From the NCBI RefSeq assembly GCF_024169245.1, contig NZ_JALJWP010000001.1:5147501-5211500 (forward strand): DNA of 64,000 nt, written 5' to 3'. The notes below the pieces were generated by a model. The model worked only from the letters and a program-made list of their open reading frames with translations. It did not search any database and was not told the origin of the DNA. Position 1 is the first letter of the stretch. The number at the start of each line of letters is the position of its first letter. The position numbers and the translations under genes were made by a program. Below are positions 4,715 through 19,113 of this stretch, in pieces. Source of the stretch: Pseudomonas koreensis (GTDB taxonomy: Bacteria; Pseudomonadota; Gammaproteobacteria; Pseudomonadales; Pseudomonadaceae).

Positions 4715-4909
4715 GTCCGTTTCCCCCGATAAGGCCTTTGCACAGGGTAGATGGCTGGCTGGCCTGCTGTAGAAAATTCTGCAAATGTGTCGTGATTGGC
4801 ACGTTTTTCCCATGCACTGCCGACTTGCGAAATCAACCTTCGCCAATCAGCGCTGGCGGTGCCCATCCCGCACCAAGAGCATTCATCGAACGCTATCCGC
4901 GTTCTTGTA

Positions 4910-5130
4910 AGGTGCGACAGGGAACCAAAAGTTCGCCTGTCCGAGCTGGCAACAAGGAGTTCACCGCGTGAATCTTCAGATCTTCCGCCGTCCGACAGAC
5001 CCGACTCACTTGCAAATCCAGCCGAGCAAATTCGGCTTGGTGCGTTTCTACTTTATTACCTGAAACCCAACGCACACTTAACGTGCCTGGCGACCGAGCA
5101 TCGCCGGGCGCCAGGTGTTATTTATTTTTT
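4910..5130 (+). ncRNA. Possible structured small RNA ending in a hairpin and T-run
   Basis: Three hairpins follow one another on the plus strand: GACAGG/CCTGTC with an inner GAAC/GTTC and AAAA loop (4916-4941); CCAGCCGA/TCGGCTTGG (about 5018-5040); and CCTGGCG/CGCCAGG (5086-5092 with 5109-5115) followed by TGTTATTTATTTTTT. The last resembles a weak intrinsic terminator. GGA triplets occur in single-stranded parts. No promoter could be placed and no known RNA family is recognised, so this is only a candidate. Confidence 0.25.
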
Positions 5131-5435
5131 AAATACGACAATGAATAAAAGGCGGTTTAGCAAGATTGTCGAACAATGAATTGCCGCCATTGAAGTTGCA
5201 CCAAAAGCGCACGCCTGAATGTGATGCAGTTATCCAATACTCCAGAATCAAAATAAGGAACATATCCTGTGAGCCGCTGAATTACTGACCTGCACCAAAT
5301 CGATTCGCCGCGCACCGTAAGGTGCTGAGCCTGATCACCGAGCAGCCGCTCTATCTCGCCAACTCGCGCGATACGGCGTTAACGCTGACTCGCACTCGAA
5401 AAAGCCCTTCTGCGAGGACTTGAAGACCATTTCGC

Positions 5436-5452
5436 GCTGTATAAAACAGCGA
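5436..5452. promoter_or_regulatory. Palindrome upstream of the sigma-54 promoter, possible activator site
   Basis: CGCTGT-ATAAA-ACAGCG is a perfect 6-base inverted repeat with a 5-base spacer. It is centred about 108 bases upstream of the predicted transcription start, a common distance for enhancer-binding-protein sites. The cognate activator is not encoded nearby and the motif does not match a consensus I can name. Confidence 0.3.
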
Positions 5453-5525
5453 GCGAACTTGAAACTTATAGAAATGCGACATCGGCAGCACCGAGATAAT
5501 CCACTCAATGCAGTTCGGCAATAAC

Positions 5526-5541
5526 TGGCACACCTGTTGCA
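5526..5541 (+). promoter_or_regulatory. Sigma-54 (RpoN) -24/-12 promoter for the tonB operon
   Basis: TGGCACACCTGTTGCA matches the RpoN consensus TGGCACR-N4-TTGCW at every defined position, with GG (5527-5528) and GC (5539-5540) twelve bases apart. Predicted transcription starts near 5552, leaving a leader of about 225 bases before tonB. Transcription would need an enhancer-binding ATPase encoded elsewhere. Confidence 0.7.
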
Positions 5542-5575
5542 AACTGTAACAAGCAGGAGACAGCTAACGTCTCCA

Positions 5576-5586
5576 AACAACAACAA
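5576..5586 (+). promoter_or_regulatory. A-rich Hfq/Crc-type (CA) motif in the tonB leader
   Basis: AACAACAACAA contains the AANAANAA pattern bound by Hfq with Crc in pseudomonads. It sits in the predicted leader four bases before AGGGA, the ribosome-binding site of the 8-codon frame. It suggests carbon catabolite repression, but there is a single motif and it lies far from tonB itself. Confidence 0.35.
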
Positions 5587-5601
5587 GCCAGGGAATGGAT
5601 C

Positions 5602-5628
5602 ATGAGCAATCAAAAAAGATATTCCTAA
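5602..5628 (+). CDS. Possible 8-residue leader peptide (MSNQKRYS)
   Basis: ATG-AGC-AAT-CAA-AAA-AGA-TAT-TCC-TAA follows AGGGA with eight bases of spacing, inside the predicted sigma-54 leader and about 150 bases before tonB. The ribosome-binding site and spacing are good, but so short a frame can occur by chance and no regulatory codon run or attenuator hairpin is evident. Confidence 0.25.
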   Translation: MSNQKRYS

Positions 5629-5776
5629 GCCAATAAGTTTGTTCGAGGCCACTTAAACAGATAGTCCAACTATCGGCTCGCGTACATCTTGAAGAAAGTT
5701 GCACCCACTCACTCGAACATCAGCCATATGTTCGGACGGCACCTTATTGCCCTTCATCTGACCCGAGGGAGCTTTA

Positions 5777-6601
5777 ATGAACGATGCGGTAAAGCACAGA
5801 ACCCTGCCGGGGACGTTGCAGCAAGCGCCGGTTCCGCCGCCCCCGGGCAGGCCGGCGTTTACAGCCAACACGTCACGACCCGGCGGGTTGAACAAACCAC
5901 AGATGCTCTTGCTGATCGCCGTGTCGGCACTGATACACGGCGGCGCGTGGTGGTTCTTCCATCAGGCGCGACCGGAGCCACTGCCGACGCCGCCGGAAAT
6001 TCCGGAAATGACCGTCGAGCTGACCAGCCCGACACCTCCGGCCCCGCCAACACCGGAACCACCGCCGCCGCCCCCGCCTCCACCGCCGCCGGAACCCGAG
6101 CAGCCTGTGGAGGACGAGGACGCGGTCAAGCCGCCGCCAAAACCGCTGGAGAAGCCCAAACCGATCGAGAAACCGAAACCGGTCGAGAAGCCAAAACCAG
6201 TGAAGAAAGTCGAGCCGCCGAAAGCGCCGCCCGCCCCGGCGCAACCGTCCGCACCTGCGGCGCCGACCACACCGAGCGCACCACCGGCACCACCTGCTGC
6301 ACCCGCTCCGGTCAAGGAATCGGCGGCGATTTCCGGCCTGGCCAGCCTTGGCAATCCGCCGCCGGAATATCCGTCGCTGGCGCTGCGACGTAATTGGGAA
6401 GGCAGCGTGGTGCTGCGCATTCAGGTGCTGGCCAACGGCCGTGCCGGTGCGGTGACGGTGACCAAGTCCAGCGGCAAACCGCAACTGGATGAGGCGGCCG
6501 TCGCGGCGGTGAAGAACTGGAAGTTCATTCCCGCCAAGCGCGGTGACACGCCGATCGACGGCTTCGCCACCCAGACCATCGATTTCAAATTGCCGCAGTG
6601 A
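5777..6601 (+). CDS. tonB: TonB energy-transducing protein
   Basis: 274 residues. A single N-terminal membrane anchor at residues 42-60 contains the Ser-x3-His motif (Ser50, His54) needed for coupling to ExbB/ExbD. A long proline-rich periplasmic spacer follows (about 65-180, with runs of Pro and repeated Lys-Pro/Glu-Lys-Pro units). The C-terminal TonB domain (about 188-274) has PEYPSLALRRNWEGSVVLRI and the usual AVAAVKNWKFIPAKRG. TonB carries proton-motive energy from ExbBD to outer-membrane receptors. The start is supported by GAGGGA six bases upstream. It heads the tonB-exbB-exbD set and is followed by a receptor gene, so it is probably dedicated to that receptor. Confidence 0.95.
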   Translation: MNDAVKHRTLPGTLQQAPVPPPPGRPAFTANTSRPGGLNKPQMLLLIAVSALIHGGAWWFFHQARPEPLPTPPEIPEMTVELTSPTPPAPPTPEPPPPPPPPPPPEPEQPVEDEDAVKPPPKPLEKPKPIEKPKPVEKPKPVKKVEPPKAPPAPAQPSAPAAPTTPSAPPAPPAAPAPVKESAAISGLASLGNPPPEYPSLALRRNWEGSVVLRIQVLANGRAGAVTVTKSSGKPQLDEAAVAAVKNWKFIPAKRGDTPIDGFATQTIDFKLPQ

Positions 6602-6646
6602 CGGCGCAACCGACTCATTACTGATTAACGCAAGCGAGGTGTAGCC

Positions 6647-7354
6647 ATGAACGATTCACTGTCTTCGATGATTGTCCCCGGTGTGCTCTGGGGTCTGGTG
6701 CTGTTTTCCGTGGTCAGTTGGGCGATCCTGCTGGTCAAGTCGGCCCAGTACCTGCGCCAGAAAGCGCAGAACAAACAGTTCACCAAAGCCTTCTGGAGCG
6801 CGCCTGACCTGCTCACCGCCGCCGAACACGCCAGCCAGTATCCGGGCTCGCTGGCGCGCATCGCCAGCAGCGGTTTCGAAGCCCTGCTGGTGGAAGATTC
6901 GCCGCGCACCACTCAGCAACTGGCGCACACCATCAACCGTTCCGATCGTCTGGAGCGTAACCTGCGCCAGCAGATCCAGAAGGAACGTCGCTCGCTGGAA
7001 AACGGCCAGGCGATCCTCGCCAGTATCGGCAGCACCGCACCGTTCATTGGCCTGTTCGGCACGGTCTGGGGAATCATGGAAGCCCTGCAAAGCATTGGCG
7101 AAACCGGCTCGGCCAGCCTTGAAGCGGTCGCCGGGCCTATAGGCCACGCGCTGATCGCCACCGGCGTGGGCATCGCCGTCGCGGTGCCGGCAGTGCTGAT
7201 CTACAACTTCTTCCTGCGTCGGCTGAAACTCGCCTCGGCGGATATGGACGACTTCGCCCACGACTTCGACGCCCTCGCCTCGCGCAGCGCGTTTTCCATC
7301 AGCCGTCAGGCCATCGCCAGCAAAAGCACGGCCGCCGTGCGGGAGGCCAGCTGA
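6647..7354 (+). CDS. exbB: ExbB-type proton channel subunit (MotA/TolQ/ExbB family)
   Basis: 235 residues with three membrane segments in the ExbB layout: about 10-30 (VLWGLVLFSVVSWAILL), 124-146 (APFIGLFGTVWGIMEAL) and 166-190 (GHALIATGVGIAVAVPAVLIY). The conserved GLFGTVWGI and the third-helix pattern are intact. ExbB pentamers surround ExbD and use the proton gradient to energise TonB. The stop codon overlaps the exbD start by one base (TGATG), which implies translational coupling. Confidence 0.94.
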   Translation: MNDSLSSMIVPGVLWGLVLFSVVSWAILLVKSAQYLRQKAQNKQFTKAFWSAPDLLTAAEHASQYPGSLARIASSGFEALLVEDSPRTTQQLAHTINRSDRLERNLRQQIQKERRSLENGQAILASIGSTAPFIGLFGTVWGIMEALQSIGETGSASLEAVAGPIGHALIATGVGIAVAVPAVLIYNFFLRRLKLASADMDDFAHDFDALASRSAFSISRQAIASKSTAAVREAS

Positions 7355-7755
7355 TGTCGTTCTCCACTCAAGACAGCGATGAAGTGCTCAGCGAAATGAA
7401 CGTCACGCCGCTGGTCGACGTGATGCTCGTGTTGCTGGTGGTGTTCATCGTCACCGCGCCGCTGATGACCAACGCGATCAAGGTCAACCTGCCGAAAACC
7501 GACGCCGTGGCGCCCGCCGAAAAGAAAGATCCGGTGGTGGTCAGCGTCGATCAGGACGGCAAGTTCTATCTGGCCAAGACCGAACTGGCCCCGGAATCCC
7601 TCGAGGCCAGCCTCAAGGAAGTCAAGGCCAAGGACGCCGAGGTGCGCGTGCAGTTACAGGCCGATGCCGCCGTCAACTACGGCCAGGTGGCCAAGGCCAT
7701 GGCATCGATCGAACGCTCGGGCATCAGCAAGATTTCGGTGATGACCACCCACTGA
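7354..7755 (+). CDS. exbD: ExbD-type proton channel subunit
   Basis: 133 residues. It has a cytoplasmic N-terminus, one membrane helix (about 19-39, PLVDVMLVLLVVFIVTAPLM) with the essential protonatable Asp at residue 22 (Asp25 in E. coli ExbD), then a periplasmic domain ending ISKISVMTTH. It completes a full TonB-ExbB-ExbD complex. A gap of 207 bases separates it from the receptor gene; no strong terminator is seen there, so read-through is plausible. Confidence 0.94.
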   Translation: MSFSTQDSDEVLSEMNVTPLVDVMLVLLVVFIVTAPLMTNAIKVNLPKTDAVAPAEKKDPVVVSVDQDGKFYLAKTELAPESLEASLKEVKAKDAEVRVQLQADAAVNYGQVAKAMASIERSGISKISVMTTH

Positions 7756-7962
7756 GTGCGGTGTTGGCGGCCCTTGAGAGCACCCGCCGGCACCGCTGAA
7801 AAAGAATCCCGTCGCACCCGGCCGACCGAAAAAAACGCCACGCGTCTTCGGAGGGATCGGCTTGCTTGAAGAAAGTGGTTTTCCGCGCGCGGTATCACCG
7901 GAAGCGGAGCAATGAGCGGCTCACAAGGCCAATTCGATAACGTCTGAAAATCGGAAACAACC

Positions 7963-10674
7963 ATGCTGATGAACACTCCACGCTTCACGCTCAAACCTTT
8001 GGTGGCAACGATGTCTCGCCACCGTTTTGTTCCGCTGTATCTGGTGGCCATGGGGATGGGCGCCGGGACCGTGCAAGCGGCCGAGGACGACAACAGCGCC
8101 ACGCCGGCAGCCGCTGTCGTGGCCGCGCCGACCACGCAACTGCAGCGGGTCGAAGTGACCGGTTCGGCGATTCGCCGGGTCGATGCGGAAACGGCGGTAC
8201 CGATCACCATTCTCAAGGCTGACGAGCTGCGCAAACAGGGCGTGACCACCACCGCCGAACTGGTCCAGCGCATCACTGGCAGTCAGTCGATCAACAACAG
8301 CGCCGGTTCGGTCGGCGCGGCCACCGGCGGGGCGTCCTTCGCCGACATGCGCGGCATCGGCGCGAACAAAACGCTGGTGCTGCTCAACGGTCGACGCCTG
8401 GCCAACAATGCCTTGTCCGGCACCAACTCGGCCGGCGGCGCGGTGGATCTGAACATGATCCCGTTTGCCGCCATCGAACGCGTAGAAGTGCTGCGTGACG
8501 GCGCCTCGGCCCTGTACGGCACCGACGCTATCGGCGGTGTGATCAACTTCATCACCAGGAAATCCCTCACCGACGGCGCGTTGACCCTCGGCGGTGAAAC
8601 ACCGACCCACAGCGGTGGCGGTGCGACCAAGGACATGAGCGCCAGTTGGGGCTACGGCGATCTGGAAGAAGACCGCTTCAACGTCCTCGGCGTGTTCAAC
8701 TACAACAAACAGCAGAACCTCGATGCCAACGACCGCTCCTTCGCCACCGACTACGCGCCCGGTCGCGGTCTCGATCAGACCTCCGGCACCGCGTTCCCGG
8801 GCAACTACAGCCAGAACGGCAACGCCACCAACCCGTTGGCCAACAGCAATTGCAACGGCCCCAACCTGATCGCCCGCGACGGCTTGTGCCGTTTCAGCAC
8901 CCGCGAATATATCGATCTGGTGCCGCAAACCGAGAAGACCTCATTCTTCGGCAAGACCACCGCCAAGCTCGGCGATGAACACAACGCCAACCTCGAATAC
9001 TTCTGGTCGCGCAACAACAACGCCGTCGCTGTCGGCCCGGCGCCACTGACCGGACTGAGCCTGGATTCCTCGTCGCCGTACTACCCCGGCAATGGCATCA
9101 CCCCGGCACCGACCGATTTCGCCCTCGACCCGACGCAACCGGTCGACGTCAACTGGCGTGAGACCGCCGCTGGCCCGCGTGAATCGAAAGACCAGAACAC
9201 CAGCCAGCGCTTCCTGCTCAGTTTCGATGGTCTGGTCGGCGGTTGGGATTACAACGTCGGCGCCTCGTACAACCAGAACAAAATCGTTTCCAGCGTCACC
9301 AGCGGCTACGTCAGTGACCAAGCGATGATCGACGGTCTGGCCAGCGGCTTGCTCAACCCGTTCGGCCCGCAAACCGCTGCCGGTCAGCAGTACATCGACG
9401 CCGCCGCGTACCACGGCGCCTACTCCACAGCCGTGGGCCGCGTCGCCGGTTTCGACGGCCGCGTCAGCCGTGAGATCGGCGACTGGTTCGGTGCCGGTCC
9501 TGCCGGTCTGGCGCTGGGTGGCGAGTACCGCAAGGAGAAATTCCATCAGGATTTCGAGTCGTTCGCCGGCGACATCCAGAGCCTGGGCATCGACCCGGCC
9601 GGCAGCGTTGAGGGTGATCGCAGCGTGAAAGCCGCCTATGCGGAAATCAACGTGCCAGTGCTCGACAGCCTCGAACTGTCCGCCGCTGTGCGTCACGACA
9701 AATACAGCGACTTCGGCAGCACCACCAACCCGAAATACTCGTTCCGTTATCAGCCGTTGAAAGAGCTGGTGGTGCGTGGTGCCTACAGTGAAGGTTTCCG
9801 CGCGCCGTCGCTGTACGAACTGTATTCGCCGCGCAGCATCACTTTCACTCAGGGTTACTACAACGACCCGGCACTGTGTACCGGCGGCGTGGTGCAACCG
9901 GGCGGTAACGGCGGGCGCGATTGCGGTCAGCAATTTCTCAATCAGATTGGCGGCAACGAAGATCTGGCCCCGGAGAAGGCGCGCAACGTCACCTTGGGTT
10001 TCGTCTACCAGCCGATCAGCAATCTGTCGGTGGGTCTGGATTTCTGGTGGATTCACATCTCCAACCAGATCCAGCCGTTCCCGGAATCCACCGTGTTCGA
10101 TCAGGCCGGATCCTACCCGGACCGTTTCGTGCGCAACGCCGACGGCACGCTCAACTACATCGTCACCGGCAACGCCAACCTAGGCATCGTCGAAACCAAC
10201 GGTGTCGACGTGTCGCTCGACTATCGCTTCCCGAACACGTTTTACGGTCAGTTCGGCCTCGGCCTGCAAGGCACCTATGTCGACGAGTACGACTTCCAGA
10301 GCACCATCAAAGGTCCGTTCACCGACAAGGTCGGCGACTTTCAGGGTGACGGCGTGATCGCGCGCTGGAAGCACAACCTCACCGGTAGCTGGACCTTCGG
10401 CGCGGCACGGGCGGCGCTGACCAACCGCTTCACCACCGGTTACAACGATTACGATCGCGAGACGCACGCGCGGGTGGCGTCGTATTCGGTGTGGGATCTG
10501 TCGGCCGGTTACACCTTCAACAAAGTGCTCGACGTGGATGCCGGGATGAAGAACGTCTTCGACCGCAACCCGCCGTTCTCCAACCAGGCCTACAACTTCC
10601 AGAGCGGCTATGACCCGCGCTACACCGACCCGCTGGGCCGAACATTGTTTGCGCGCATGACGTATCACTTCTGA
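7963..10674 (+). CDS. TonB-dependent outer-membrane receptor, large Oar/BtuB-like type
   Basis: 903 residues. The signal peptide ends about residue 43 (GAGTVQA-AED). The TonB box and plug domain follow (QLQRVEVTGSAIRR; LRKQGVTTTAELVQR; KTLVLLNGRRL; ERVEVLRDGASALYGTDAIGGVINFI), then a 22-strand barrel ending in RMTYHF with the terminal aromatic residue. There is no STN signalling domain, so it should not act through an ECF anti-sigma pair. It lacks siderophore-receptor hallmarks that I recognise. Its place between exbD and yejABEF points to a peptide-like ligand, which is inference. The ATG at 7963 has only a weak GGAAA ribosome site. Confidence 0.9.
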   Translation: MLMNTPRFTLKPLVATMSRHRFVPLYLVAMGMGAGTVQAAEDDNSATPAAAVVAAPTTQLQRVEVTGSAIRRVDAETAVPITILKADELRKQGVTTTAELVQRITGSQSINNSAGSVGAATGGASFADMRGIGANKTLVLLNGRRLANNALSGTNSAGGAVDLNMIPFAAIERVEVLRDGASALYGTDAIGGVINFITRKSLTDGALTLGGETPTHSGGGATKDMSASWGYGDLEEDRFNVLGVFNYNKQQNLDANDRSFATDYAPGRGLDQTSGTAFPGNYSQNGNATNPLANSNCNGPNLIARDGLCRFSTREYIDLVPQTEKTSFFGKTTAKLGDEHNANLEYFWSRNNNAVAVGPAPLTGLSLDSSSPYYPGNGITPAPTDFALDPTQPVDVNWRETAAGPRESKDQNTSQRFLLSFDGLVGGWDYNVGASYNQNKIVSSVTSGYVSDQAMIDGLASGLLNPFGPQTAAGQQYIDAAAYHGAYSTAVGRVAGFDGRVSREIGDWFGAGPAGLALGGEYRKEKFHQDFESFAGDIQSLGIDPAGSVEGDRSVKAAYAEINVPVLDSLELSAAVRHDKYSDFGSTTNPKYSFRYQPLKELVVRGAYSEGFRAPSLYELYSPRSITFTQGYYNDPALCTGGVVQPGGNGGRDCGQQFLNQIGGNEDLAPEKARNVTLGFVYQPISNLSVGLDFWWIHISNQIQPFPESTVFDQAGSYPDRFVRNADGTLNYIVTGNANLGIVETNGVDVSLDYRFPNTFYGQFGLGLQGTYVDEYDFQSTIKGPFTDKVGDFQGDGVIARWKHNLTGSWTFGAARAALTNRFTTGYNDYDRETHARVASYSVWDLSAGYTFNKVLDVDAGMKNVFDRNPPFSNQAYNFQSGYDPRYTDPLGRTLFARMTYHF

Positions 10675-10693
10675 CCGCTAACACCACACCCCT

Positions 10694-10782
10694 TGTAGGA
10701 GTGAGCCTGCTCGCGATAGCGTTTTTTCAGTCAACCCAGCAGGGTCTGACTTGGCCTCATCGCGAGCAGGCTCACTCCTACA
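10694..10782. repeat. Inverted REP pair, GAGCCTGCTCGCGA type
   Basis: TGTAGGAGTGAGCCTGCTCG and its reverse complement flank a 40-base centre between the receptor and yejA. It lies inside the presumed operon, 40 bases before the yejA start, so it could reduce or stabilise downstream message. Confidence 0.85.
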
Positions 10783-10821
10783 GTTTGATCTGTGTGCATT
10801 CAGGGATTAAGGAGTGACCTC

Positions 10822-12687
10822 ATGATTTTTTTGCGCAACATGGCGGGCCTGCTGCTCGGCAGTGCGCTGCTGTGCTTCGGGGCGTCGGCGCTGGCCGCCG
10901 GCAGTCACGCGCTGACGGTGTACGGCGAGGCGCCGAAGTATCCGGCCGGCTTCAAGCATTTCGATTTCGTCAACGCCGACGCACCCAAGGGCGGGTCGCT
11001 CAGCCGTGCGTCGATGGAGATCGGTCAGTACAACTACATCACGCCATACGCCGATCAGGGCATTTCCGTGGTGCAGATCAATGACTGGGTATACGCGCCG
11101 CTGGCGTTCCGTTCGCTGGATGAGCCCTACACGGTTTACGCTCTGGTTGCGCAGCAGATCGAACGCGACCCGGAAGGTTTGTGGGTGCGCTTCACCCTCA
11201 ACCCCAAGGCACGTTTTGCCGACGGCACGCCGATCACCGCCGAAGACGTGCGCTACACCTTCAACCTGCTGATGACCAAGGGCAGCCTGAGCTATCGCCA
11301 GCAATATGCCGACGTGCAGGACGTGCTGGTCGAAGGCCCGCGACAGGTGCGTTTCACCTTCAAGAACAACCTCAATCGCACCCTCGCGCTGGATCTGGCG
11401 ACGCTGCGCGTGCTGCCCGAGCATTGGTGGAAAACCCGTGACTTCGCCAATGGCGGCGGTTTCGAGCCACCGCTGGGCAGCGGCCCGTACCGGGTGAGCA
11501 AGGTCGACGCCGGGCGCAGCATCAGTTTCCAGCGCGATCCGGACTGGTGGGGCAAGGACCTGCCGGTGAGTCGCGGCATGTACAACTTCGACAGCCTGAC
11601 GGTGAATTTCTACGGTGACACCGACGTCGCTCGCCAACTGCTGCAGGCCGGTGCGTTCGACTACAACCGCGAGTTCTCCTCGTCCGGATACGTGGTCGGC
11701 TACGACAGCCCGGCGTTGCGCGACGGTCGCTTGCAGCAGGCGATTCTGGCGCCGGACAAACCCACGGCGGCGCAGGGCTTTGTGTTCAATCTGCAAAACC
11801 CGATCTTCCAGGATCGCCGCGTGCGTCAGGCGATCAGCCTGCTGTGGGATTTCGAGTGGACCAACAAGCAGATGATGCGCGGCTTTTACGTGCGCCAGAA
11901 CAGCTTCTGGCCGAAGAGTGAAATGGCCGCCACCGCGCTACCTGATGCCGAAGAATTGAAGATCCTCGAACCGCTGCGAGGGCAAGTCCCCGACGAGGTC
12001 TTCACCACGGTGTATCAGGCGCCGAAAACCGATGGCAGCGGCTACATCCGCGACAAGCAACTGCAAGCCTTGAAGCTGCTCGCCGAGGCTGGCTGGACGG
12101 CGCAACACAATCGCCTGGTCAACGCTGCGGGCGAGCCGCTGGAATTCACCTTTCTCGACGGTCAGGGCGGCTTCGATCGCATGCTGCTGCCGTTCAAACG
12201 CACCCTCGCGCAGATCGGTATCACGCTCAATCTGCGACGGATCGATTCGGCGCAATACATCAACCGTCTCAACGCCCGCGATTACGACATGATCGTCTGC
12301 GCTTTCCCGCGCAGTGGCGATCCGATCGTCTCCCCGGGCCGCGAGTTGTACAGCCTGTATGGCTCGCAAAGTGCCACGCAAGTCGGCAGCTCGAACGCGA
12401 TGGTGCTGGCCGATTCGGCGGTCGATCAACTGCTCGACGGGTTGGTCCAGGCCAACAGCCGCGAAGCCATGGTGCATTACGCCCGCGCTCTCGACCGGGT
12501 GCTGCAATGGGGTTACTACATGATTCCCAACTACTACTCCAAAGGCACGCCGACGGTGTATCAGAACCGTTTCGGCATGCCGCCCGTACAACCGGCGTAC
12601 GACGAAGGCCTCAACACCTGGTGGGAAGTCTCGGCCAGGCCCCTGACGACTCAGCAAATGAGCGCTCAGCTAGCGGGGGGGCAGTGA
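10822..12687 (+). CDS. yejA: Periplasmic solute-binding protein of a YejABEF-type peptide ABC transporter
   Basis: 621 residues, a family 5 extracellular solute-binding protein like YejA and MppA. The signal peptide is residues 1-24 (cleavage ASALA-AGS). Mature features include [30 protein letters not shown], the family signature region with [20 protein letters not shown], and the C-terminal TWWEVS. AAGGAG seven bases upstream fixes the ATG at 10822; a longer GTG-started reading from 10792 is not needed. It delivers substrate to the YejB/YejE permease. E. coli YejA and P. aeruginosa NppA relatives bind oligopeptides and peptide-nucleotide antibiotics. Confidence 0.92.
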
Positions 12688-12688
12688 C

Positions 12689-13753
12689 ATGCTGCGTTAT
12701 CTGAGTCGCCGTTTGCTGCTGATCATCCCTACGCTGCTGTGCATTCTGGTGGTGAATTTTCTTATCGTGCAGGCCGCGCCCGGCGGGCCGGTGGAACAAG
12801 CCATCGCCCGCCTGCAAGGCTTCGGCGGGCACAGCATGGGCGGTGGCGGCGAAGTTGCGGCGGTCGGGGGTGCCGGGCGCAGCAGCCGAGGTCTGGATCC
12901 GGCGCTGATCGAAGAAATCAAACACCATTACGGCTTCGACAAACCGCTGCACGAACGTCTATGGCTGCTGCTGAAAAACTACGCGCAACTGGATCTGGGC
13001 AACAGCTTCTTTCGCGGCGCCAAGGTCACCGACCTGATCGTGCAGAAACTGCCGGTGTCGTTGTCGCTGGGCCTGTGGGCGACGTTGATCACCTACCTGA
13101 TTTCGATCCCGCTGGGCATTCGCAAGGCAATCAGAAACGGCAGCGCCTTCGATGTCTGGAGCAGCACCGCAATCATCGTCGGCTATGCGATGCCGGCGTT
13201 TCTCTTCGCCATTCTGTTGATCGTGGTGTTCGCCGGGGGCAGCTACGTCAATTGGTTTCCGGTGCAGGGGCTGGTGTCGGACAACTTCGACAGCCTCGGC
13301 ACATTGGGCAAGGTCGGCGATTATCTCTGGCACCTGGTGCTGCCGGTTACTGCGCTGGTGATCGGCGGTTTCGCCACGCTGACGATCCTGACCAAGAACA
13401 GCTTTCTCAACGAGATCAGTCGCCAGTACGTGGTCACCGCACGAGCCAAGGGCCTGACCGAGAGGCGCGTGCTTTACGGCCATGTGTTTCGCAACGCCAT
13501 GCTGCTGGTGGTGGCCGGCGTGCCGTCGGCGCTGATCGAAGTGTTTTTCGCCGGCTCCCTGCTGATCGAAACCATCTTCAATCTCGATGGCCTCGGGCGC
13601 ATGAGCTACGAAGCGGCGGTGTCACGGGATTATCCGGTGGTGTTCGGCGCGCTGTTTCTGTTCACCCTGTTCGGCCTGCTGATCAAGCTGATCGGCGACC
13701 TCTGCTACACCCTGCTCGACCCGCGCATCGATTTCTCGGCGAGGACTGCCTGA
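12689..13753 (+). CDS. yejB: ABC transporter permease YejB
   Basis: 354 residues. The DppB-type permease begins [20 protein letters not shown], followed by the long Gly-rich periplasmic loop characteristic of YejB (about 45-75, [16 protein letters not shown]). Further helices and the EAA-loop that contacts the ATPase ([25 protein letters not shown] in part) follow. It forms the inner-membrane pore with YejE. It starts one base after the yejA stop and its stop overlaps the yejE start by one base, so the four yej genes are translationally coupled. Confidence 0.94.
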
Positions 13754-14775
13754 TGTTCACACTGTCGCCTCTGGGCCAGCGCCGCGTCGCGCAATTCAAG
13801 GCCAACCGCCGTGGGCGCTGGTCAATGTGGCTGTTTATCGGCCTGTGCCTGATCTGCTTCGGTGGCGAGCTGATCGCCAACGACAAGCCGCTGGTGATTC
13901 GTTATCACGACGCTTTCTACTTTCCGATCCTCAGCGATTACCTGGAAACCGATTTCGGCGGCGAGCTGCCGTTTCAACCAGATTACGCCAGCAGCTATGT
14001 TCACAAACTGATCGAGGATCAGGGCGGCTGGATGCTGTTTCCGCCGATCCCGTTCAGCTACGACACGGTCAATTACGACCTCACCGAACCGGCGCCCAGC
14101 CCGCCGTCATCGAGCAATTGGCTGGGCACCGATGATCAGGCTCGCGATGTTCTGGCGCGGGTGATTTTCGGCACACGGATTTCCATTCTGTTCGCGCTGA
14201 TCCTCACCGCCATCAGCGCGTTGATCGGCATTCTCGCCGGGGCTTTACAGGGATATTACGGCGGCTGGGTCGACTTGCTCGGGCAGCGCGTACTGGAAAT
14301 CTGGTCGGGGTTGCCGGTGCTGTACCTGCTGATCATTCTGTCCGGCTTCGTCTCGCCGGGTTTCTGGTGGCTACTGGGGATCATGGCGCTGTTTTCCTGG
14401 CTGGCGCTGGTCGATGTGGTGCGCGCCGAGTTTCTTCGTGGACGCAATCTGGAGTACGTGAAAGCCGCGCGGGCGCTGGGCCTGACCGACAGCGAACTGA
14501 TGCGCCGGCACATTCTGCCGAACGCGATGACCTCCACCCTCACCTACCTGCCGTTCATTCTCACCGGCGCCATCGCCACTCTGACCGCGCTGGATTTTCT
14601 CGGCTTCGGCATGCCCGCCGGCACCGCGTCGCTGGGCGAGTTGATCGGCCAGGCCAAACGCAATCTGCAGGCACCGTGGCTGGGGCTGACGGCGTTTTTT
14701 GCCCTGGCGTTGATCCTGTCTTTGTTGGTTTTCATCGGTGAAGCGTGCCGAGATGCCTTTGATCCGAGGAGCTGA
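13753..14775 (+). CDS. yejE: ABC transporter permease YejE
   Basis: 340 residues. After an N-terminal helix (about 23-40, WSMWLFIGLCLICFGGELIA) there is a periplasmic domain with the YejE-specific YHDAFYFPILSDYLETDFGG-like region. A DppC-type core with GTDDQARDVLARVIFGTR and the EAA-loop EYVKAARALGLTDSELM follows. The start at 13753 is chosen because it overlaps the yejB stop (TGATG) and gives the expected N-terminus; the frame stays open far upstream only as antisense-like noise within yejB. Confidence 0.94.
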   Translation: MFTLSPLGQRRVAQFKANRRGRWSMWLFIGLCLICFGGELIANDKPLVIRYHDAFYFPILSDYLETDFGGELPFQPDYASSYVHKLIEDQGGWMLFPPIPFSYDTVNYDLTEPAPSPPSSSNWLGTDDQARDVLARVIFGTRISILFALILTAISALIGILAGALQGYYGGWVDLLGQRVLEIWSGLPVLYLLIILSGFVSPGFWWLLGIMALFSWLALVDVVRAEFLRGRNLEYVKAARALGLTDSELMRRHILPNAMTSTLTYLPFILTGAIATLTALDFLGFGMPAGTASLGELIGQAKRNLQAPWLGLTAFFALALILSLLVFIGEACRDAFDPRS

Positions 14776-14776
14776 C

Positions 14777-16411
14777 ATGCAAGACAACCTGATTGAAATT
14801 CGCGACCTGCGCGTGGCCTTCGCCGGGCAGGAAGTGGTGCACGGTGTGAACCTCGACATTCGCCGTGGCGAGTGTCTGGCGCTGGTCGGTGAATCCGGCT
14901 CGGGCAAGTCGGTGACGGCGCATTCGATCCTGCGTCTGCTCCCGGGCAAGAGCGTTAGCAGCAGCGGCGCGATTCGCTATAGCGGCGTAGATTTGCTGCA
15001 CGCCAGCGAACAGCAGATGCGCGGTCTGCGGGGCAATCGCATTGCGATGATCTTCCAGGAGCCGATGACCTCGCTGAACCCGTTGCACACGGTGGAAAAA
15101 CAGATCAGCGAAGTGCTGGAAATCCACAAGGGCCTCAAGGGCCGCGCCGCTCGTGCACGGACGCTCGAGCTGCTGGAACTGGTTGGTATTCACCAACCGT
15201 TACAGCGTCTGAAAGCCTATCCGCATCAGCTCTCCGGCGGTCAGCGGCAACGGGTGATGATCGCCATGGCGCTGGCCAACGAGCCGGAACTGCTGATTGC
15301 CGATGAGCCGACCACGGCGCTGGACGTGACCGTGCAACAGAAGATTCTCGAACTGCTGATCGAACTGCAGCAGCGCCTCGGCATGTCGTTGTTGCTGATC
15401 AGTCACGACCTCAATCTGGTACGGCGCATTGCTCAGCGGGTGTGCGTGATGCGTCAAGGCGAGATCGTTGAACAGGCCGACTGCGAAACGCTGTTTCGTG
15501 CGCCGCAGGATCCCTACAGTCGTTTGTTGATCGAAGCTGAGCCGAGCGGCGTGCCGGTGCCCAGTGAATACGAGCACAATCTGTTGGAAGTCGATGACTT
15601 GAAGGTGTGGTTTCCCCTGCCGAAAAAATTCTTCAGCCGCCAGCAGGATTACATCAAAGCGGTGGACGGGGTCAGTTTCACCCTGCAACGCGGCAAGACC
15701 CTGGGCATTGTCGGCGAGTCGGGTTCGGGCAAGTCGACGCTGGGGCAGGCGATCCTGCGACTGGTCGAATCAGAGGGCGATATCCGGTTCGGCAACAAGC
15801 AATTGAGCCTGCTCAATCAGCGCCTGATGCGCCCGTTGCGCCGGCAGATTCAAGTGGTGTTCCAGGACCCGTTCGGCAGCCTCAGCCCGCGCATGTCGGT
15901 GCAGCAGATCATTGCCGAAGGCCTGCTGACCCATGGCATCGGCAGCGAGGCCGAGCGTGAAGCAGCGGTGATCCGCGTGCTTGAGGAAGTCGGCCTCGAT
16001 CCGCAGAGCCGCCATCGTTACCCACACGAGTTTTCCGGCGGCCAGCGCCAGCGCATCTCCATCGCCCGCGCACTGGTGCTGGAACCGGCGCTGATCCTGC
16101 TCGACGAACCGACCTCGGCGCTGGATCGAACGGTGCAGAAACAGGTGGTGGAGTTGTTGCGCCAGTTGCAGATCAGGCACGGGCTGACTTATCTGTTCAT
16201 CAGCCATGATCTGGCGGTGGTGCATGCGCTGGCGCATGACTTGATGGTGATCAAGGATGGCAAGGTGGTTGAACAAGGATCGTCGCGCGAGATCTTCGCC
16301 GCGCCGCAACATCCGTACACCCAAGAGTTACTGAAAGCCTCGGGCCTCAAGCCTTACAGAGAGCCTTGTGGGAGCGAGCCTGGTCGCGAATGCGGTGCGT
16401 CAGTCACATAA
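14777..16411 (+). CDS. yejF: ABC transporter ATPase YejF (two fused nucleotide-binding domains)
   Basis: 544 residues. The first ATPase has Walker A GESGSGKS at 38-45, signature LSGGQRQ at 152-158 and Walker B LLIADEP at 172-178. The second has Walker A at 313-320, signature FSGGQRQ at 419-425 and Walker B ILLDEP at 440-445. It powers YejB/YejE. AGGAG five bases before the ATG supports the start. The stop is unusual: residues 531-544 ([14 protein letters not shown]) are read from a REP palindrome that begins at 16367, so the natural C-terminus has been extended into repeat DNA. The conserved core is complete, so the protein is probably functional. Confidence 0.95.
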
Positions 16412-16455
16412 GTGCTGACTGACCCGACGCTTTCGCGAGCAGGCTCGCTCCCACA
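16367..16455. repeat. Inverted REP pair, GCGAGCCTG type, overlapping the yejF 3' end
   Basis: The left arm TGTGGGAGCGAGCCTGGTCG (one mismatch in the core) and right arm TTCGCGAGCAGGCTCGCTCC are reverse complements around a 40-base centre. The left arm and part of the centre are translated as the last 14 residues of YejF. Confidence 0.85.
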
Positions 16456-16579
16456 GGTTTGATCTTTGTGTTTGAAATTTATTTTTCCGGCACTGCATCC
16501 AATCGCCTCCGTCACGGGTAGTCCCTGTAACAGCCCACTCTGGTGCTGTCAGCGCACTACCTTTTCGGAGAATCATCGG

Positions 16580-17101
16580 ATGAACATCACCCAGCTGATT
16601 GGCTTCACCGGTTTGCTCGCCTTCACCGCGACCACCTTCGCCCAGAGCAGTTATCCCGACGCGATCAAGGTGCCGGACGGGCACAAGATTGCCCTGGAAA
16701 CCACCGGGGTTGGCGAGATCACCTACGAATGCCGCGACAAACCCAATATGGCCGGGCAGACCGAGTGGACCTTTGTCGGCCCGAAAGCGGTGCTCAATGA
16801 TCGCAGCGGCAAACAGGTCGGCACCTATTTCGGCCCGCCTGCTACCTGGCAAGCCAAGGACGGTTCGAAAGTCACCGGCACACAACTGGCCGTGGCGCCG
16901 TCGAGCCCGCGAAACCTGCCCTATCAACTGGTCAAGGCCAATCCGGCCGAGGGCAAAGGCGCGATGACCGGGGTCAGCTACATCCAGCGTGTTGCGCTCA
17001 AGGGCGGCGTGGCGCCGGGCAGCGAATGCACGATGGCGAACAAGGGCAAGCAGGAAATGGTGAAGTACCAGGCGGATTATATTTTCTGGGCGGCGAACTG
17101 A
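16580..17101 (+). CDS. Exported DUF3455 family protein
   Basis: 173 residues. The signal peptide is residues 1-22 (TTTFAQSSY). It is recognised as DUF3455 by PDAIKVPDGHKIALETTGVGEITYECR, the TEWTFVGPKAVL strand, the GPPATWQAKDGSKVTGTQ segment and the C-terminal SGxCT-like end (PGSECTMANKGKQEMVKYQADYIFW). Function is unknown; family members are often next to ECF sigma/anti-sigma pairs, as here. GGAG precedes the ATG by nine bases. It may be a target of the adjacent sigma factor. Confidence 0.8.
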   Translation: MNITQLIGFTGLLAFTATTFAQSSYPDAIKVPDGHKIALETTGVGEITYECRDKPNMAGQTEWTFVGPKAVLNDRSGKQVGTYFGPPATWQAKDGSKVTGTQLAVAPSSPRNLPYQLVKANPAEGKGAMTGVSYIQRVALKGGVAPGSECTMANKGKQEMVKYQADYIFWAAN

Positions 17102-17209: not shown

Positions 17210-17254
17210 AGGGGATCTGTGTGGTTCCGGGAAATGTGAGCTAGATTGCACCCC

Positions 17255-17782
17255 ATGCCTTTAGCCGAATCCGTTTTCGATTACGAAGCCCGCCTCGCTG
17301 CCTGTGCCCGGGGAGAGCGCGCGGCTCTGCGCGATCTGTATGTGCAGGAAGGCCCGCGCTTGCTCGGCGTAGCCAAGCGATTGGTGCGCGATACGGCGCT
17401 GGCAGAGGACATTGTGCATGAGGCGTTCATCAAGATCTGGAACGGCGCCGCCGGGTTCGACCCGGCGCGCGGGTCGGCGCGGGGCTGGATGTTCAGCGTG
17501 GCCCGGCATCTGGCCTTGAATCAGCTGCGCAAGCAAAGTCGGGAAACGCCGTTCAGCGAAGAACATGAGGCCGCCGCGCCTGATGAGGCGGTCGATGTTC
17601 ACTCGGCTCGCATTCATCGCTGCCTCGAACAACTGGAACCGCAGCGGCGCAGCTGCATCCTCCACGCCTACGTCGACGGTTACAGCCACGCGCAGATATC
17701 CGCGCGCCTCGACACGCCGCTGGGCACGGTCAAAGCGTGGATCAAGCGCAGCCTCAATGCTTTGCGGGAGTGCATGGGATGA
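17255..17782 (+). CDS. ECF-type RNA polymerase sigma factor
   Basis: 175 residues. Sigma region 2 (about 20-90) contains LVRDTALAEDIVHEAFIKIW and SARGWMFSVARHLALNQLRK. Region 4 (about 118-170) contains LEQLEPQRRSCILHAYVDGYS, AQISARLDTPLGTVKAWIKRSL, which is the helix-turn-helix that reads the -35 element. The ATG at 17255 is preferred to the TTG at 17246, though neither has a strong ribosome site. It overlaps the anti-sigma gene by four bases (ATGA), the standard arrangement for an inhibited ECF factor of the SigK/RskA kind. Confidence 0.92.
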   Translation: MPLAESVFDYEARLAACARGERAALRDLYVQEGPRLLGVAKRLVRDTALAEDIVHEAFIKIWNGAAGFDPARGSARGWMFSVARHLALNQLRKQSRETPFSEEHEAAAPDEAVDVHSARIHRCLEQLEPQRRSCILHAYVDGYSHAQISARLDTPLGTVKAWIKRSLNALRECMG

Positions 17783-18471
17783 CCGGCGAATCAGCGCAGG
17801 AACGGGATGAACTGGCCGGCGAATACGTGCTCGGCACGCTGTCGTTCGAGCAGCGCATCGAAGTGCAACGGCGCTTGCCCGACGAGCCCGAATTGCGTGC
17901 AGCCGTGGATGCCTGGGAGCGGCGCCTGCTGGAGCTGACCGATCTGACCGAACCTCAGCAACCGTCGGCGCAGCTGTGGCCTCGCATCGAGCGCAGTCTC
18001 GAACGGCTGACGGTGAGCAAACCGCTGACCTCCTGGTGGAACCTGCTGCCGCTGTGGCGCGGTCTGAGCGCCGCCGGGCTGGCGGCGACCTTGATGCTCG
18101 GCACGATCCTGCTGACCCAGACTGCGCCTAAACCGAGTTATCTGGTGGTGCTGGTGGCGCCGCAGGACAAGGCGCCGGGCTGGGTGATTCAGGCGAGCAA
18201 TGCACGTGAGATCCAGTTGATTCCGCTGGGCGTGGTCGACGTGCCGGCGGACAAGGCGCTGGAATTCTGGACCAAGGCTGACGGCTGGTCGGGGCCGGTG
18301 TCGTTGGGCCTGGTCAAACCGGGGCAGGCGTTGTCGGTGCCGCTGGACAAACTGCCGCCGCTGCAACCCAACCAGCTGTTTGAGCTGACGCTGGAAGGCG
18401 CCAACGGCTCGCCGATCGGCAAGCCGACCGGGCCGATTCAGGCGATCGGGCGTGCGGTGAAGGTGCTCTGA
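17779..18471 (+). CDS. Anti-sigma-K-like factor (RskA family)
   Basis: 230 residues. The cytoplasmic N-terminal anti-sigma domain (about 1-80) has DELAGEYVLGTLSFEQRIEVQRRL, the usual RskA opening. A membrane helix (about 96-114, LSAAGLAATLMLGTILLTQ) and a periplasmic RskA domain (about 118-228) with SYLVVLVAPQDKAPGWVIQA and GPIQAIGRAVKVL follow. It would hold the upstream sigma factor inactive until the periplasmic domain senses a signal. The start overlaps the sigma stop by four bases. A HxxxCxxC zinc motif is absent. Confidence 0.9.
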   Translation: MTGESAQERDELAGEYVLGTLSFEQRIEVQRRLPDEPELRAAVDAWERRLLELTDLTEPQQPSAQLWPRIERSLERLTVSKPLTSWWNLLPLWRGLSAAGLAATLMLGTILLTQTAPKPSYLVVLVAPQDKAPGWVIQASNAREIQLIPLGVVDVPADKALEFWTKADGWSGPVSLGLVKPGQALSVPLDKLPPLQPNQLFELTLEGANGSPIGKPTGPIQAIGRAVKVL

Positions 18472-18479
18472 CGTTCCTC

Positions 18480-18561
18480 TGTAAGAGCTGCCGAAGGCTG
18501 CGATCTTTTGATTGTTCTCAAAATCAAGATCAAAAGATCGCAGCCTTCGGCAGCTCCTACA
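18480..18561. repeat. Inverted repeat, GCTGCCGAAGGCTGCGATC type
   Basis: TGTAAGAGCTGCCGAAGGCT with inner GCGATCTTTTGAT and the reverse complement to 18561, directly after the anti-sigma gene. Confidence 0.85.
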
Positions 18562-18672
18562 TTAATCATCATCGCCGTCGATGTTCATCATCACGGCAAT
18601 GAAGTTCTCATAAAAAAATCCGGGCGTAACATCAGCTCCATACCAACCAACAACACCCCGGAGCACACCATC

Positions 18673-19113
18673 ATGAAACGCCAGACTCTTCTCAGCATCG
18701 CCTTCTCGGTTTTTGCAGTAAACGCTTTCGCCGCCACTCCGGCGCACACCATGATCGCCGAGGGCGGTTCGGACAAACTGATTGAAAGCCGTCTGGCTGA
18801 AGGCGGTTCGGATCGCCTGATCGAACGCCGTGTTGCTGAAGGTGGCGCTGATCGTCTGATCGAACGCCGTGTTGCCGAAGGTGGTGCTGATCGTCTGATC
18901 GAACGCCGTGTTGCTGAAGGTGGCGCTGATCGTCTGATCGAACGCCGCGTTGCCGAAGGTGGTGCTGATCGTCTGATCGAACGCCGCGTTGCTGAAGGTG
19001 GTGCTGATCGTCTGATCGAACGTCGCGTTGCTGAAGGTGGCGCTGATCGCCTGATCGAACGCCGCGTTGCCGAAGGTGGTTCGGATCGCCTGATCGAACG
19101 CCGCGTTGCCTGA
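18673..19113 (+). CDS. Exported protein of nine 13-residue repeats (AEGGADRLIERRV)
   Basis: 146 residues. A signal peptide (about 1-20, AVNAFA-ATP) and a short spacer are followed by nine consecutive 13-residue units from 18757 to 19107, then a final Ala. Units 3-8 are identical in protein; units 1, 2 and 9 have Ser for Ala, and unit 1 also has LIESRL. The DNA units are 39 bases and nearly identical. Each unit has two Arg pairs and a Glu/Asp-rich face, so a solenoid or helical rod is possible. No catalytic motif is present. Similar short Pseudomonas proteins have, as I recall without certainty, been labelled phage infection protein. GGAG lies about ten bases before the ATG and an intrinsic terminator follows. 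Confidence 0.8.
   Translation: MKRQTLLSIAFSVFAVNAFAATPAHTMIAEGGSDKLIESRLAEGGSDRLIERRVAEGGADRLIERRVAEGGADRLIERRVAEGGADRLIERRVAEGGADRLIERRVAEGGADRLIERRVAEGGADRLIERRVAEGGSDRLIERRVA
18757..19107 (+). repeat. Nine tandem 39-base repeats within the exported repeat protein
   Basis: The unit reads GCTGAAGGTGGCGCTGATCG onward; copies differ by a few synonymous changes (for example GCTGAA/GCCGAA, GGTGGC/GGTGGT). Because 39 is a multiple of three, copy-number change keeps the reading frame, and the complementary strand also shows long artefactual open frames. Confidence 0.95.

Follow-up and report, generated by a model that had tools for sequence, protein, structure and literature searches.

TonB-dependent uptake of oligopeptides across the outer membrane is carried out in the Bacteroidota by RagAB/SusCD systems, which require a SusD-type lid lipoprotein, and in methanobactin import the TonB-dependent transporter MbnT is paired with a YejA-like solute-binding protein (SBP), MbnE. 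Proteins of the YejA family bind peptides, and are said to need peptides that are already periplasmic or an outer-membrane route that is unknown (PMC10924461). A 64-kb stretch of Pseudomonas koreensis DNA (the window; positions 5147501-5211500 in a genome assembled as one contig of 5.97 Mb) carries eight genes on the + strand at window positions 5777-16411, in the order tonB-exbB-exbD-receptor-yejABEF. A preliminary description made from the window's sequence had listed eight co-directional genes in this order, and all of them are present on a single strand. Here, it is proposed that these genes likely encode a TonB-driven oligopeptide import system, and that this import probably serves nitrogen scavenging under RpoN and, possibly, under translational control.

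The first three genes were assigned by their domains as tonB (5777-6601, +; PF03544, 1.7e-20), an exbB-type gene of the MotA/TolQ/ExbB group (6647-7354, +; PF01618, 4.5e-34) and an exbD-type gene of the ExbD/TolR group (7354-7755, +; PF02472, 6e-31), and the joint presence of TonB_C, MotA_ExbB and ExbD domains in one gene set identifies a TonB-ExbB-ExbD motor. When compared with NCBIfam equivalogs, the ExbB-type protein scored 138.6 bits for exbB (cut-off 206.2) and 172.6 bits for tolQ (cut-off 221), and the ExbD-type protein scored 95.5 bits for ExbD_1 (cut-off 152.95) and 117.7 bits for tolR (cut-off 127.3); because both fall under every listed curated cut-off, the motor is of a divergent kind. 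Furthermore, the genome encodes five TonB C-terminal domains in all, and therefore the operon's TonB owes the label 'dedicated' to its location and not to any necessity. The receptor gene (7963-10674, +) encodes a TonB-dependent outer-membrane protein of 903 residues with Plug (PF07715) and barrel (PF00593) domains; an AlphaFold2 model built from 20 similar sequences reached a mean pLDDT of 32.4 and was too poor to use. The YejA-type periplasmic binding protein (~10822-12687, +; also open from a GTG at 10792) contains SBP_bac_5 (PF00496, 9.2e-62) and matched the solved YejA chains 8fsr (1.5e-112) and 7atr (2.5e-112). The permease genes yejB (12689-13753, +; NF011712, 520.7 bits, cut-off 445) and yejE (13753-14775, +; NF011596, 470.5 bits, cut-off 439) both exceed their subfamily cut-offs and, with the YejA-type binding protein, place the system among Yej-type importers. 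The gene for the two-domain ATPase, yejF (~14780-16411, +; also open from a GTG at 14738), has two ABC_tran stretches and NF011713 as its best match, yet its 738.9 bits lie below the equivalog cut-off of 834; the protein is Yej-type, not a YejF equivalog.

Gene order was compared in two partly overlapping sets, with some genomes in both: the named loci, which are the best 80 of 165, and 40 further stretches, none longer than 20 kb, with 35 from the genus and 5 from elsewhere in the class. The 35 were counted together with a plasmid, L038, whose tonB comes from annotation, as 36 genus-set loci. All eight genes stand in the complete order in 68/80 named loci and in 24/36 genus-set loci. Named loci that missed it are seven paralogues (one of them cut), four loci cut at contig ends, and L185, which starts 0.6 kb before the receptor, and the genus-set misses are 11 paralogues lacking tonB-exbBD and the contig-cut L072. 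The same order across Pseudomonas, named earlier as a check, was thus found, and the adjacency of receptor and yej genes is conserved, contrary to the refuting condition set out there. The receptor itself was detected in 29 of 149 genomes in the genus-level search (25 of the window's type, four with the paralogue only), in 15/369 genomes of the class (E <=1e-60), mostly at 30-35% identity, and in 2/390 genomes of the order (1e-120), own genome counted; it is 99% identical in records of P. siliginis and Pseudomonas sp. CFBP13508. All three Pseudomonas aeruginosa megaplasmids that were found (L038, L290 and L291; ~480-530 kb) carry the operon order.

Several peculiarities of individual copies were also recorded. 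On the three megaplasmids the operon adjoins mercury-resistance genes, with a TldE-type gene and an ABC exporter upstream; TldD is annotated in L038 only among the three, in a gene table that is incomplete. In locus L082 (from 10501, genome G098), the receptor gene is split across two frames and the other seven genes match at full length, and in L193 (P. asuensis) and L196 (P. luteola) a second receptor, ~31% identical, lies between the first receptor and yejA. Among records named P. viridiflava, L127 and L128 hold a copy at 97% whereas L152, L154 and L187 hold one at 80%, a split suggestive of wrong labels or of mixed genome records.

The P. koreensis genome encodes two further Yej-type systems, and no match to this receptor or motor was found within 18-20 kb of either, so that the coupling of receptor and motor to Yej, previously called unusual, is indeed unusual within its own genome. 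One of the two adjoins a gene for an enhancer-binding protein, followed by a permease and a short-chain dehydrogenase (by eye), and the other is Npp-like, with two binding proteins. A paralogous group of clusters, clade-2 (L081 and L083-L092), resembles the window's operon in that a receptor (64-68% identical) adjoins yejABEF, as in L083 and L090; unlike the operon, these clusters showed no tonB-exbBD and no sigma-54 site at >=10/11 bases. A FecR gene lies upstream in both of the clade-2 loci scanned, and an STN domain is present in some database relatives (precomputed) and was undetected in two translated loci. Clade-2 clusters appear to be the same cargo machine under different control.

The operon is preceded by a sigma-54 (-24/-12) promoter, TGGCACACCTGTTGCA (5526-5541, +; TGGCAC-N5-TTGCA, with the GG-N10-GC core), which is the sole exact match in the 64 kb. 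Taken from the window's sequence alone, this site is not strong evidence, because 12 of 100 shuffles yield at least one match and the site is thus not rare enough alone. However, the comparison across loci settles the promoter as conserved: TGGCA[CT]N5TTGC[AT] was found 1.0-1.3 kb before exbB in 82/83 testable loci, representing 73 distinct contexts, and, with both strands counted, the pattern matched seven times elsewhere in 4.93 Mb. The near-perfect RpoN promoter of the preliminary description is accordingly an exact match that keeps its place. A sigma-54 site also precedes tonB in L093 and L283, receptor relatives outside core Pseudomonas. A scan of 5200-16800 for sigma-70-type sites gave no match on the two strands, where shuffles predict 2.4, and no terminator-like site was found between genes on the + strand; the three + strand terminator-like matches of that scan are two within yejB and one beyond yejF. 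The operon may be read as one transcript from the RpoN promoter.

Comparison also revealed an inverted repeat that had been overlooked, TGCACCAA...GGTGCT (5291-5326, +), a putative element for an enhancer-binding protein with NtrC-like half-sites. It lies ~235 bp upstream of the promoter, and its clearest form is YGCACCAA-N-TTGGTGCR. A loose pattern, GCACY...RGTGY placed between -210 and -244 relative to the -24 element, matched 66 of the 76 distinct regions upstream, with a chance of ~0.03 per region by our own estimate, and was missing from ten (L038, L064, L068, L093, L142, L145, L190, L192, L193 and L196). In a pattern search of eight genomes, 6-14 matches were obtained per genome vs 1-10 for the reversed control; the operon site was among the matches in six genomes, and the other two have GCACT, which the pattern excludes. 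The consensus of the NtrC operator is GCACC-N5-GGTGC, and the half-sites of the repeat are spaced by 24-26 in core Pseudomonas vs 5 in that consensus, or about two extra helical turns. GCACCAAAACAGGT occurs in the promoter region of glnA in this genome (glnA being identified by eye), and GCAC-N7-GTGC was noticed after the fact in L193 and L283. Genome-wide, 49 places match GCACC-N4/5-GGTGC vs 21 for the reversed pattern; outside glnA/ntrB (named by eye), the 11 regions around NtrC-like places have sigma-54 matches that are weak at best (9/10 bases, in 3/11). A linked activator gene was sought by tblastn (1e-25) in 123 loci with 16 enhancer-binding proteins (the own genome has 22 matches to PF00158, 18 of them strong, and 16 of those were used), and no match was found. 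Control by nitrogen or carbon state had been suggested earlier; nitrogen control, with NtrC as a candidate activator, is plausible given the half-sites, but their spacing is abnormal.

The nature of the substrate was approached through the neighbours of receptor relatives. Peptidase genes adjoin all three of the examined relatives with receptors of 40-53% identity. In L283 (51-53%), an Opp-type ABC set with an SBP_5 protein, permeases and a YejF relative (59%), together with an M3 oligopeptidase, is followed by tonB-exbB-exbD-receptor and an M13 peptidase, with the sigma-54 site ~90 nt ahead of the likely tonB start. In L093 (40%), an M3 peptidase and a POT transporter stand alongside tonB-exbBD-receptor, and in L039 from Acinetobacter baumannii (41%; three records of this kind exist, L039 among them), genes for an M3 peptidase, two SBP_5 proteins and permeases are divergent from receptor-tonB-exbB-exbD-exbD. 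These neighbours suggest that the substrate is a peptide, as had been supposed; the further suggestion of a peptide-conjugate antibiotic found no specific support. General scavenging is the best fit, given that the recurring peptidases belong to different families and that no processing genes adjoin the window's copy.

Closer to the operon, TldD/TldE genes lie upstream in 3/36 genus-set loci and were seen in 8/80 named loci, and an MsbA-like ABC exporter was found in 4/36 and 9/80, respectively; L175 and L185, which come from overlapping parts of a single contig, show the same genes, L173 retains TldE pieces only, and the TldD of L038 carries HExxxH. In plasmid L038, the operon is bordered by TldD/TldE, RND genes and the MsbA-like exporter, and in P. 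luteola and P. asuensis it is flanked by TldD/TldE, an exporter and an RND adaptor. Such surroundings would suit the uptake and handling of a specific bioactive peptide (an antibiotic, a ribosomally synthesized and post-translationally modified peptide or a peptide-nucleotide), which TldD/TldE would process or destroy and which the ABC exporter and RND pump would expel. There is precedent in that Yej systems are described as importing phazolicin (PMC10128002) and have been linked to microcin C (PMC10924461). However, neither TldDE nor an exporter accompanies most copies, including that of the window, in the stretch examined, the peptidases of the relatives are generic and digestive, and no conserved small precursor-like open reading frame (ORF) was found in ten intergenic regions between TldDE/exporter and tonB, where a 35-codon ORF was common to two close species. 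A role in handling one bioactive peptide is thus considered unlikely. Less probable still is the import of a peptidic metallophore, in which receptor and SBP would recapture a methanobactin-like metal-peptide complex: the match of the SBP to the methanobactin-binding MbnE (5icq, 2e-107) is almost as good as that to the YejA chains (1.5e-112), but control is by sigma-54, not by a metal regulator, and the neighbours that were identified are peptidases and not metallophore biosynthesis genes, at which no model search was aimed. Recycling of cell-wall muropeptides, as by YejBEF-YepA of Agrobacterium, draws on the same ABC family (PMC9790009) but is highly improbable, as muropeptides are released in the periplasm, and for their recovery a private motor and a receptor in the outer membrane would be needless.

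Some observations weigh against nitrogen-controlled peptide scavenging. One testable locus, L161, has no sigma-54 site, and a complete GCACC-N5-GGTGC is absent from the window's repeat. Receptor relatives at ~30% identity occur in mixed contexts (the one such neighbour that was Pfam-scanned, in L094, is an M14 carboxypeptidase), and the ABC exporter and RND genes near some copies fit detoxification equally.

The RNA leader between promoter and tonB contains three further elements that were overlooked in the preliminary description, and the leader is undescribed. A leader ORF (uORF) encoding MSNQKRYS-stop (5602-5628, +) follows an AGGGA at 5590-5594. A ribosome site with an ATG and a stop within 4-9 codons was found in 76/83 leaders, encoding 40 distinct peptides, of which 15 have Pro as their last residue; under a stricter ribosome-site rule, a uORF was present in 31 of 39 diverged representatives vs 1.5 expected from dinucleotide shuffles. 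The eight misses under that rule include the plasmid and P. asuensis. L193 and L196 have an identical 35-codon ORF at the place of the uORF. The precursor of a microcin C-type peptide is a short ORF with a terminal Asn; the uORF was considered as such a precursor and rejected, as 0/40 distinct peptides end in Asn.

Just before tonB, a conserved RNA hairpin, UCGAACAU...AUGUUCGG (5713-5735, +), was supported by covariation in 46 sequences, which are our own selection from 66 distinct segments (L174, among the 66, is a false match). Overall, 94.8% of the cells are paired; cells with double changes number 30 vs a shuffle mean of 6.7, and the covariation score is 0.247 vs 0.123 for shuffles, neither being reached in 500 shuffles, although kinship among the sequences inflates covariation scores. 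Slid registers gave at most 58% pairing and covariation of <=0.091, a comparison in which the hairpin is favoured because its structure was derived from the consensus of the same sequences. The number of pairs with a double change, six, is not outstanding, being matched by 53/500 shuffles and by a slide of +3. In the adjoining segment, UUAUUGCCCUU with the tonB Shine-Dalgarno GAGGGAG (5744-5771, +), the alignment shows that CCCUU (5750-5754) is able to pair with GAGGG (5765-5769); this helix is almost invariant and hence without covariation support. For 16 whole leaders, folding energies gave z of +0.1 to -3.3 (60 shuffles each), mostly above -2, and structure is claimed here for the covarying hairpin alone, not for the entire leader. 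A covariance model of the leader, run with stricter Infernal filters, matched 25/149 Pseudomonas genomes (E <=0.001), one match per genome, some matched sequences belonging to the model itself; these are the same 25 genomes that carry the operon type, and across the 149 genomes the leader is thus linked to a single operon. Rfam gave no match to window positions 4900-8000 at E up to 1. Leader-based translational control of the operon is a tentative proposal from these elements, and equally tentative is a reading of it as a new translation-attenuation device specific to this operon, in which pausing of terminating ribosomes at the uORF stop, often directly after a Pro codon, would alter the hairpin and the masked Shine-Dalgarno of tonB. 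If this were true, the cell could gauge its translation or peptide status through an attenuation leader before making a TonB motor under RpoN.

In the proposed scheme for oligopeptide import, an activator bound ~235 bp upstream, possibly NtrC, would switch the promoter on under nitrogen shortage, and a single RpoN-driven transcript would encode the whole route. The receptor would capture peptide at the surface, and force from its own TonB-ExbB-ExbD would release it into the periplasm, where the YejA-type protein would bind it for transfer to the cytoplasm by YejBEF. Digestion would follow by general or co-encoded peptidases, such as TldD/TldE in some relatives, and the leader, with its tiny ORF, hairpin and maskable Shine-Dalgarno, may adjust the amount of motor protein.

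Beyond the operon, the window contains two overlapping ORFs (17246-18471) that resemble, by eye, an extracytoplasmic function (ECF) sigma factor and its anti-sigma partner. An ORF at 18508-19113 seems to encode a small protein made up of AEGGADRLIERRV repeats and encloses a 39-bp tandem repeat (18778-19109; 8.5 copies, 91% matches).

Taken together, the operon is a candidate answer to how large peptides cross the outer membrane to a Yej importer: a candidate route complete from surface to cytoplasm, whose genes stay together in many Pseudomonas as well as on megaplasmids from clinical isolates. The receptor, if it is a peptide gate, may offer an entry for peptide-based antibacterials. When compared to known systems, the operon is similar to YejABEF of Escherichia coli and Sinorhizobium and to NppA1A2BCD of P. 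aeruginosa in its YejA-type SBP, its YejB/YejE permeases and its single two-domain ATPase; however, no adjacent receptor and motor are described for those systems in the portions of the sources available. With methanobactin import it shares a receptor and an MbnE-like SBP, but, to our knowledge, mbn operons have no private TonB-ExbBD and no YejBEF, and their control differs from that of this operon. A SusD-type lid, as in RagAB/SusCD, is not among its eight genes. No open-access title was found that names a tonB-exbBD-receptor-yejABEF operon. The operon joins a receptor, a motor and a Yej importer, each of a known kind, behind a conserved sigma-54 promoter.

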